Source: an uncultured Candidatus Peregrinibacteria bacterium (GTDB lineage Bacteria > Patescibacteriota > Gracilibacteria > Peribacterales > Peribacteraceae). From it: a DNA stretch of 64,000 nt. This document shows positions 12,713 to 45,706 of this stretch, one piece after another; within the stretch, counting starts at the first letter, position 1; the number at the start of each line of letters is the position of its first letter. The stretch covers positions 124,001 through 188,000 of the forward strand of contig CAIKAD010000002.1 in the NCBI GenBank assembly GCA_903825315.1, read 5' to 3'. The notes beneath the pieces are model-generated. The model was not told where the DNA came from and did no database searches. It saw only the letters and a program-made list of their open reading frames with translations. The position numbers were made by a program, and so were the translations under genes.

Positions 12713-12811
12713 ACATGAATATTATAACATAATTTAGTATTATTAGCAATTTTGTGCCGAAGGAGGGTATCGAACCCTCAGCGCCTTGCGGCACACGATT
12801 TTGAGTCGTGC

Positions 12812-12946
12812 CCGCCCGTACCGAACGTATTCATAATGGTGCCATGGGTGGGAATCGAACCCACATTCCTTGCGGAACACGATTTTGAGTCGTGCGCGTC
12901 TACCAATTCCGCCACCATGGCAAGGATCTACGGTACGTTCGGGCGG
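12812..12946. mobile_element. Insert with CCGCCCG/CGGGCGG arms carrying tRNA-Leu
   Basis: Minus strand CCGCCCGAACGTACCG...CGTTCGGTACGGGCGG; same arm design as 3379-3416. Confidence 0.6.
12837..12921 (-). tRNA. tRNA-Leu (CAA)
   Basis: GCCATGG...CCATGGC-A-CCA, class II variable arm, anticodon loop CTCAAAA. Confidence 0.93.
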
Positions 12947-13052
12947 ACGTGTCTACCAATTCCGCCACTCCGGCACGACGAGATTGTACCTCTTGTCCGG
13001 AGCGCCAGGAAGTGACGCGTGCCGTTCCCCTTTCCGGTATGCTGATGCTCTC

Positions 13053-20086: not shown

Positions 20087-20163
20087 TGGTGCCACGGGCC
20101 AGGATTGAACTGGCGACCCCAGGCTTATGAGTCCTGTGCTCTACCAACTGAGCTACCGTGGCA
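20087..20163 (-). tRNA. tRNA-Met (CAT); could be elongator Met or Ile2
   Basis: GCCACGG...CCGTGGC-A-CCA, loop CTCATAA. Confidence 0.93.
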
Positions 20164-20217: not shown

Positions 20218-20264
20218 CGCGTCTCGACAAGCTGCGACGCGGCCAACTGAGCTACCGTGGCACG
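20218..20264 (-). pseudogene. Truncated tRNA-Met 5' fragment followed by a palindrome
   Basis: 20243-20264 repeats the first ~22 nt of the intact tRNA-Met gene; followed by CGCGTC...GACGCG hairpin (20218-20241). Confidence 0.8.
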
Positions 20265-41053: not shown

Positions 41054-41890
41054 ATGATGAAGATGACTTGGGGCCTTGCACTCTCAGCGGGATCAGCCCT
41101 CGGCATGGCCAATGCCGGTATCATCGAGCGCCTGGAGGAGGAAGGACTGCGACCAAACGCCATCGCCGCAAGCAGCATGGGTGCCATCATCGGCTCGTTG
41201 TACGCGCTGGGACTTCCCACGTCCGTGTTTCGGACGCTGGCGAAGGAAATCAACCTCACAAATATCGTCCGTGCAAGCAAGCGCCCCTTCCTTGGTGGCC
41301 TGCATGGCGGCGCGCTGCGTCAACGCCTTGAGGAGCATCTGGAGCCGTATATTGGCAACGCAACCATAGGAGACTGCGTGATTCCCTTCTACTGTGTCGC
41401 GGGGCGCGTCAAAGAGCCCATCCGCTGGGAGCGGATCATTCAGGAACAGTTTGGCGATTACGTGAACGCTTGCATCGAACCATACGTCTTTCCGCCGGAG
41501 ACGCCGCTCCTCGCCGCCATCCTTGCCAGCAGCGCCATTCCCGTGGTCTTCTCTCCGGTGACGATCGGAAAGGACTCCTTTGTGGATATCTGCAACTTTG
41601 GCGCCATCCCCGTCCGTGAGTTACGGGAGCACGCCCATCCGGACATCATCATCGCCACGCACACCATGCCCGCCTACGACAAGCTTAAGCGTATCTCGCC
41701 CAGGTTCCTGCGTGACTGGCTGGACTTTAACGCACGCATGCTCCAGGAGGGCGCGGAAGGCGCTGACCTCATCATCACGCCCAAGCCTGCAGCGCCGTCC
41801 TTCCGTTTCGACAAGTTTGCAGCGTTCATGCAGGCCGGGAGAAAGGCAGCCGACGAGGCGATGCCAAAGATACGTCAACTGCTCAAATAG
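41054..41890 (+). CDS. Patatin-like phospholipase/NTE family
   Basis: WGLALSAGSALGMANAGIIERLEEEGLRPNAIAASSMGAIIGSLYALG; GxSxG (ASSMG) and VDICNFGAIPV. Confidence 0.85.
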   Translation: MMKMTWGLALSAGSALGMANAGIIERLEEEGLRPNAIAASSMGAIIGSLYALGLPTSVFRTLAKEINLTNIVRASKRPFLGGLHGGALRQRLEEHLEPYIGNATIGDCVIPFYCVAGRVKEPIRWERIIQEQFGDYVNACIEPYVFPPETPLLAAILASSAIPVVFSPVTIGKDSFVDICNFGAIPVRELREHAHPDIIIATHTMPAYDKLKRISPRFLRDWLDFNARMLQEGAEGADLIITPKPAAPSFRFDKFAAFMQAGRKAADEAMPKIRQLLK

Positions 41891-41911: not shown

Positions 41912-41946
41912 GGCTTGCCATGAGGAGTCCGGCTGCGGACGACGAA
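41912..41946 (-). repeat. Conserved post-tRNA element, likely remnant of a GIY-YIG cassette start
   Basis: Minus strand TTCGTCGTCCGCAGCCGGACTCCTCATGGCAAGCC, near-identical to the stretch between tRNA-Lys and its GIY-YIG ORF (45595-45631). Confidence 0.7.
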
Positions 41947-42023
41947 TGGTGCGCTTGGCGGGATTTGAACCCACAACCTTCGGCTTCGGAGGCCGACGCT
42001 CTATCCAGTTGAGCTACAAGCGC
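41947..42023 (-). tRNA. tRNA-Arg (CCG)
   Basis: GCGCTTG...CAAGCGC-A-CCA, loop CTCCGAA. Confidence 0.93.
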
Positions 42024-45293: not shown

Positions 45294-45321
45294 TGGTGGG
45301 TCAGGTGAGGATCGAATCCTT
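45294..45321 (-). pseudogene. Truncated tRNA-Lys 3' end copy (T-loop to CCA)
   Basis: Minus strand TTCGATCCTCACCTGACCCACCA, one mismatch to the intact tRNA-Lys 3' end. Confidence 0.8.
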
Positions 45322-45340
45322 CGTCGCCCTGCGGGGCTCC

Positions 45341-45604
45341 TCAGGACGAGCCCACTTCCCTCTTCCACAACGCCTCCTTCTTCATTCTGCTCCAGCCTTT
45401 GATTTCGCGCTCGCGCTTCGCTGCGTTCGCTCTATCCGGTTGCGATTCAGACCACAGTAAACGTCTTATCGAATATTTCTTCGTATGTGAGCAGGCTATG
45501 CCCTCACGATGCTCTTGAAGTCTCCGCTGAAGATCATTGGTATGACCAACATAGTATGATCCATTACGAAGCTTGAGGATGTAGACCTTGAAATGGCTTG
45601 CCAT
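45341..45604 (-). CDS. GIY-YIG domain nuclease
   Basis: FKVYILKLRNGSYYVGHTNDLQRRLQEHREG, AAKREREIKGWSRMKKEAL. Confidence 0.85.
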   Translation of the reverse strand: MASHFKVYILKLRNGSYYVGHTNDLQRRLQEHREGIACSHTKKYSIRRLLWSESQPDRANAAKREREIKGWSRMKKEALWKREVGSS

Positions 45605-45631
45605 CAGGAGTCCGCCGTAGCGGACGACGAA

Positions 45632-45706
45632 TGGTGGGTCAGGTGGGGATCGAACCCACGACCAATGGCTTAAAAGGCCACTGCTCTACCACTGAGCTAC
45701 TGACCC
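45632..45706 (-). tRNA. tRNA-Lys (TTT)
   Basis: GGGTCAG...CTGACCC-A-CCA, loop CTTTTAA. Confidence 0.94.

Follow-up and report, generated by a model that had tools for sequence, protein, structure and literature searches.

Sequence-defined miniature elements with hairpin ends at tRNA 3′ ends in a bacterium with a small genome and in related bacteria

The hairpin behind tRNA-Arg and its counterpart at tRNA-Lys

The 64,000-nt stretch of DNA analysed here, referred to as the window, belongs to the 1.29-Mb genome of an uncultured Candidatus Peregrinibacteria bacterium (the source genome). On its minus strand, from 41946 to 41912, the window carries the 35-nt sequence TTCGTCGTCCGCAGCCGGACTCCTCATGGCAAGCC immediately 3′ of the CCA of tRNA-Arg(CCG). 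Is this sequence the residue of a GIY-YIG cassette that once resided at tRNA-Arg, as the original prediction held, or does it have another origin?

The prediction relied on a near-match with the sequence behind tRNA-Lys, which we confirmed (TTCGTCGTCCGCAGCCGGACTCCTCATGGCAAGCC versus TTCGTCGTCCGCTACGGCGGACTCCTGATGGCAAGCC), and on a reading frame at tRNA-Arg that is short, as claimed. The motif TTCGTCGTCCGC-N2..8-GGACTCCT has two sites only in the 1.29-Mb genome, one at each of these tRNAs. The 12-mer with at most one mismatch has three matches in the window versus 0.54 expected, and three were reached in none of 100 shuffles. The outer pairing of the tRNA-Arg hairpin, CCAT/ATGG, recruits the tRNA's own CCA, and a gene on the opposite strand ends at 41890, approximately 20 nt away.

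The element at tRNA-Lys is complete and is composed of a left end (H1), an ORF, a right end (H2), and a displaced duplicate of the tRNA 3′ end (Table 1). In addition to its PF01541 match, the ORF product has the conserved VY, YYVG, R, EH, and RE-EIK of a GIY-YIG domain. According to the prediction, the GIY-YIG gene begins within the shared motif at tRNA-Lys. Such a start holds for some copies, in which the ATG within ATGGCAAGCC is in the GIY-YIG frame, but the ATG is part of the element itself and its coincidence with the gene start is mostly fortuitous; at three loci (L048, L065, and L067) the gene begins at a later ATG than the element's own. At the other end, the conserved H2 encodes the C-terminus and stop codon of the GIY-YIG protein (..SSLP*) in many copies, e.g., at L067 and L048. 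A search for an empty tRNA-Lys site, with the joined flanks against 74 genomes, matched tRNA-Lys genes only and gave no empty/filled pair, because flanking DNA diverges too fast between the genomes compared.

By contrast with the complete form, tRNA-Arg has neither the terminal inverted repeats nor the target-site duplication that characterize MITE-like elements. Downstream of it, no convincing H2 was found (the best candidate, 227 nt away and with 3 mismatches in 12, is at chance level), nor was a displaced duplication of the tRNA-Arg 3′ end. A tblastn search there with 12 proteins of the H1 clade (see below) for a GIY-YIG remnant returned short, chance-level matches, the best having an E-value of 0.014 over 14 residues. 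These results indicate a solo or truncated end and are no proof of a lost GIY-YIG cassette; with most copies being gene-less, this part of the prediction was not borne out. A solo H1 is also located at tRNA-Arg(CCG) in G003, which is of the same genus, and in G027, with differing stems, which reflects either a long-standing state or a gene-less copy that was inserted separately and truncated later. By sequence, the tRNA-Arg copy is one end of the element family to which the beginning of the tRNA-Lys cassette also belongs.

Table 1. Positions of tRNA genes, element parts, and displaced tRNA pieces in the window
Feature	Position	Strand	Remarks
Displaced 5′ part of tRNA-Ile	3358..3428	+	nt 1-33; 38-nt palindrome (3379-3416) in D-loop
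Second GIY-YIG ORF of the window	3432..3701	+	between displaced 5′ part and intact tRNA-Ile; open frame enters tRNA
tRNA-Ile(GAT)	3667..3742	+	intact; ARAGORN
Split tRNA-Leu(CAA), 3′ half	12754..12811	-	joined halves called tRNA-Leu(caa) by ARAGORN
136-bp insert	12812..12947	-	inverted repeats CCGCCCGAACGTACCG / CCGCCCGTACCGAACG; holds complete different tRNA-Leu(CAA), 12837-12921
Split resident tRNA-Leu(CAA), 5′ half	12948..12974	-	
Displaced tRNA-Met 5′ fragment	20243..20261	-	nt 1-19; upstream of intact tRNA-Met 20087-20162
Solo left end (H1) at tRNA-Arg	41912..41946	-	TTCG-[GTCCG/CGGAC hairpin]-CTCATGGCAAGCC; no H2, tRNA duplication, or GIY-YIG similarity downstream
tRNA-Arg(CCG)	41947..42023	-	intact, CCA encoded; ARAGORN
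Displaced tRNA-Lys 3′ end duplicate	45294..45316	-	23 nt, 1 mismatch
Right end (H2) at tRNA-Lys	45318..45352	-	GGCTCGTCCTGAG-hairpin-CGACGAAGG, counterpart of H1 in inverse orientation; includes the stop codon of the ORF
GIY-YIG ORF	45341..45604	-	87 aa; PF01541 E 1.3e-14; start overlaps H1
Left end (H1) of complete element	45595..45631 (45631 to 45595)	-	TTCGTCGTCCGCTACGGCGGACTCCTGATGGCAAGCC after tRNA-Lys CCA
tRNA-Lys(TTT)	45632..45706	-	intact; ARAGORN

Copies, paired ends, and tRNA duplications

We found 108 occurrences of CTCATGGCAAGCC in 74 genomes of the same family, compared with three of its reversed control. The motif is thus no relic peculiar to the neighboring cassette, as its constant parts, TTCG and CTCATGGCAAGCC, recur in the family, mostly immediately behind tRNA genes. 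On their own strand, 64 of the 108 copies follow a tRNA 3′ end at a distance of 0-70 nt, compared with approximately 0.15 expected by chance, as estimated from about 47 tRNA genes in 1.29 Mb. The tRNA-Arg sequence is thus a hairpin bound to tRNA 3′ ends, as suspected, and the motif is REP-like, yet it is strongly linked to tRNA ends and differs in this from a common REP element. The tRNAs concerned include those for Arg, Lys, Leu, Pro, Tyr, Val, Ala, Ile, Met, Ser, and Trp. We counted 109 H1 rows, two doubled-motif loci being counted twice; in 36 of these 109, a CCA but no intact tRNA directly precedes the hairpin. Nine of the 36 follow a 10-nt end identical to a tRNA's (control, 2.3%), and the remaining ones lie elsewhere, mostly still behind ..CCATTCG. 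Either the targeting, although strong, has exceptions, or copies decay often.

The layout of H1 is [tRNA..CCA]TTCG-[covarying hairpin]-CTCATGGCAAGCC. The stem between TTCG and CTCATGGCAAGCC varies in sequence while its pairing is kept through G-C, C-G, and T-A exchanges: at the first three positions the pairing fraction is 0.82, compared with 0.50 for shuffled partners, and none of 5000 shuffles was as high. In complete copies, H1 is accompanied by H2 (GCTTGCCCTGAG-[hairpin]-CGAAGG), which is followed by a second copy of the last 17-18 nt of the tRNA. The reverse complement of H2, CCTTCG-[hairpin]-CTCAGGGCAAGC, is the counterpart of H1, and the two have TTCG-hp-CTCADGGCAAGC in common, forming terminal inverted repeats. 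The tRNA 3′ duplication is present in 26 of the 109 rows; H2 precedes it in 24 of these 26, and its length is 17-18 nt in 20. The target-site duplication is always the tRNA 3′ end, with 17-18 nt spanning the T-loop after A58 to the CCA. Examples are Val-CAC and Ala-TGC of the source genome, both gene-less and complete, as well as Trp and Arg-TCT, and GIY-YIG-bearing copies at Tyr and Leu. Duplication of its 3′ segment leaves the tRNA gene intact, as can be read directly from these loci. The GGTTCRA stretch before H2 resembles the T-arm of the tRNA concerned, a match that plain target duplication does not explain.

Most elements are 60-90 bp long and gene-less, within a range of 60-340 bp. The prediction had proposed to check for a GIY-YIG ORF downstream in other copies: about 90 of the 109 have no such gene nearby, and the ratio of gene-less to gene-bearing copies is approximately 5 to 1. 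GIY-YIG-bearing copies share their ends with gene-less copies. A tRNA-Met carries a tandem double copy, and an identical 60-nt element is found at Val-GAC and Val-CAC of the source genome, more than 100 kb apart. The copies form a family, hitherto without a name, of miniature elements with hairpin ends that are located at tRNA 3′ ends in this bacterium and related ones.

GIY-YIG genes and displaced tRNA pieces

The source genome has eight PF01541 matches, seven of which are stand-alone genes, and all seven are located at tRNA genes. In the family, we inspected 70 GIY-YIG domains chosen by score. A tRNA lies within 300 nt upstream on the same strand for 26 of them, compared with an estimated expectation of about 0.5% each; most domains without an upstream tRNA belong to different GIY subfamilies. 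In a scan of named genomes that was seeded with the tRNA-Lys-associated protein and is therefore not a random sample, 18 of 24 GIY-YIG genes have a tRNA in this position, and the genomes span Microgenomates, Paceibacterota, Omnitrophota, Bacteroidetes, Ignavibacteria, and Fibrobacter. Displaced tRNA ends of 40 nt (Fibrobacter, Lys), 31 nt (Ignavibacteria, Ala), and 18 nt (Omnitrophota, Leu) were found in the same scan. In a tree of 33 tRNA-linked GIY-YIG domains, the hairpin class tracks the protein clade, with four changes versus a least possible three and a shuffled mean of 16.4. The core H1 clade is located at Leu, Lys, Pro, and Tyr tRNAs, and more distantly at Ile and Val. Its genes are under purifying selection (pN 0.23 versus pS 0.80), with pN lower than pS in all 66 pairs. 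The gene order tRNA-Arg(TCG), GIY-YIG, tRNA-Lys(CTT) is common to several CPR classes (L227, L229-L233, and L237), and some loci of this order have TTCG-hairpin-CTCAGYGTAAACGC ends.

We inspected the stretches around tRNA and GIY-YIG genes of the source genome for displaced tRNA pieces. About 20 of the 47 tRNA genes adjoin such pieces, with 5′ pieces upstream of 10 and 3′ pieces downstream of 12; controls in which these flanks were compared with other kinds of tRNA (n = 259) gave 5 and 2, respectively. The restored tRNA plus displaced fragment that marks tRNA-targeted islands is present. The 5′ pieces often comprise nt 1-12 or 1-19. Copies of nt 1-19, ending at the GG of the D-loop, lie 77-85 nt upstream of the intact tRNA in the window (20243-20261), at Val-CAC (L121), and at Pro-GGG (L294), and copies of nt 1-12 are seen at Trp, His, Gln-CTG, and Arg-GCG. 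Displaced pieces often have a palindrome in a loop, e.g., in the D-loop of the source Ile and in the T-loop of a Bacteroidales Pro; in the displaced piece of the source Lys-CTT, a palindrome replaces the anticodon arm. The 18 nt might arise by reverse transcription of the tRNA up to A58, the copies beginning at nt 59. We do not favor this idea, since 5′ fragments (nt 1-19 and 1-12) occur equally often and no reverse transcriptase is found in elements with identified ends.

Other tRNA loci add to this picture. At 12754-12974, both tRNA-Leu(CAA) alleles have close relatives that are intact in other genomes. Other families of post-CCA hairpins, e.g., TCCGKCTTCG..., which is often closed by CTACGCCGGGAT, and CGTATAGCGCC...GTGGCACAGCCAC, are seen in the source genome at Cys, Thr, and Ser-CGA and at Glu-TTC and Glu-CTC.

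Explanations and known systems

Could a full GIY-YIG cassette behind tRNA-Arg have been deleted except for its leader? The tRNA-Arg end is the same as that at tRNA-Lys, and GIY-YIG-bearing copies with this leader exist at other tRNAs, but the missing right end, duplication, and GIY-YIG trace, the fivefold excess of gene-less copies, and the same solo end in G003 make this unlikely. That the hairpin lies directly after the CCA and pairs with it, keeps its stem while the sequence changes, and is retained at tRNA-Arg in two genomes of the genus would agree with an immobile host RNA feature of tRNA transcripts, i.e., a 3′ trailer, processing signal, or terminator. Yet we find such a role improbable, given that the hairpin lacks a T-run, only a minority of tRNA genes carry it, it varies from one orthologous tRNA to another, in complete copies it is joined by an inverted partner and 18 nt of duplicated tRNA, and an Rfam search of eight element loci returned nothing but tRNA above the gathering score.

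Two other sources of mobility have to be weighed against the GIY-YIG protein. Classically, tRNA-targeted islands are recognized by crossover in the T-loop and a 3′ fragment that has been displaced (Islander, PMC4383910), and phage Ms6 has its attB in a tRNA T-loop (PMC1762012). The source genome has a single tyrosine recombinase, at C2:74001, away from the elements. We nevertheless doubt that the elements are minimal islands moved by such a recombinase with GIY-YIG as a passenger, since at 60-340 bp they contain no integrase and at most a GIY-YIG ORF, the GIY-YIG clade matches the end class, and tRNAs are preceded by 5′ fragments as often as they are followed by 3′ fragments. Also counting against it, hairpin ends of this kind are to our knowledge not a feature of tRNA-targeted islands. 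REPINs are units formed by two inverted palindromes, as are the elements here, which would fit palindromes moved by a RAYT-like Y1 transposase. This is highly improbable, as no Y1 transposase (PF01797) was found in the source genome, a diverged Y1 enzyme would be required, and GIY-YIG genes occupy the place of Y1 between the ends.

We consider it probable that the 35 nt at tRNA-Arg are the solo left end of a miniature mobile family that inserts at tRNA 3′ ends and is moved by GIY-YIG. A full element consists of H1 (TTCG-hairpin-CTCATGGCAAGC) directly after the CCA and an inverted H2, behind which the final 17-18 nt of the tRNA, from T-loop to CCA, are repeated; the GIY-YIG-bearing copies are the likely autonomous form. 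The nuclease would recognize the hairpin ends and the tRNA T-arm and cut tRNA genes; opening of the gene with an 18-nt stagger, or equivalent repair, would allow the element to be copied in. Gene-less H1-H2 units would be short derivatives moved in trans. At tRNA-Arg, the left end alone would remain, or alone would ever have been fixed, and the hairpin of this end may have been retained because, as a 3′ trailer, it now folds together with the CCA of the tRNA. We know of no GIY-YIG enzyme acting as a transposase, which counts against this explanation.

More tentatively, and with somewhat less than even confidence, the elements could represent a new class of mobile DNA: hairpin-ended miniatures within or next to tRNA genes, with single-domain GIY-YIG nucleases matched to their ends as the moving enzymes, in CPR and, in other forms, in Bacteroidetes, Ignavibacteria, Omnitrophota, and Fibrobacter. 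The tRNA would be kept by end duplication or by a whole replacement tRNA, so that host tRNA genes are reshaped or replaced. Single-domain GIY-YIG proteins occur widely among bacteria, and most have no known role. If true, the tRNA link, matched hairpin ends, and tRNA-end duplications would make a large group of them movers of miniature elements, account for many tRNA fragments beside tRNA genes in small genomes, and offer a route for tRNA gene replacement (compare the nested tRNA-Leu in the window). The predicted cutting of T-arm DNA and hairpin ends is directly testable.

Our search of the open-access literature, with subscription journals outside its scope, returned comparators only: it found no description of the tRNA-linked elements, and no co-occurrence of GIY-YIG with REPIN or repetitive extragenic palindromic. 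One match to GIY-YIG, Patescibacteria, and tRNA was unrelated. Like REP/REPIN sequences and their RAYT (Y1) proteins, the elements have short inverted palindrome pairs, many gene-less copies, and a nuclease gene with matching ends; they differ in having GIY-YIG for Y1, the anchoring to tRNA ends, and the 17-18 nt duplication. The atp6 ORF360 of Allomyces is reportedly an endonuclease gene with a duplicated end of its host gene. Free-standing GIY-YIG homing endonucleases and the ORF360 type share with the elements a gene beside its target and the preservation of target function by duplication of a gene end, whereas inverted hairpin ends, spread across different tRNA genes, and non-coding derivatives are particular to the latter. 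The 87-aa ORF belongs to the fold family of UPF0213 and single-domain GIY-YIG proteins (PDB 1zg2 and 1ywl); these two structures are of hypothetical proteins to which neither a function nor an element has been assigned. In CPR rRNA genes, PMC11270868 describes non-intron insertions encoding GIY-YIG, with most rRNA insertions at the top or base of a stem-loop. They occur in the same bacterial group and may be a related phenomenon, but the targets there are rRNA, the paper nowhere contains the word tRNA, and its passages on these insertions describe no hairpin ends. With tRNA-targeted islands (PMC4383910), the elements share a restored tRNA target, a displaced fragment at the far end, and the T-loop break; unlike them, they are 60-340 bp long, with inverted hairpin ends, GIY-YIG in place of an integrase, and mirrored 5′ fragments that are also common. 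Parts of what we describe resemble tRNA-targeted islands, REPINs, and homing endonucleases, but for each of the three a defining feature appears to be missing here.
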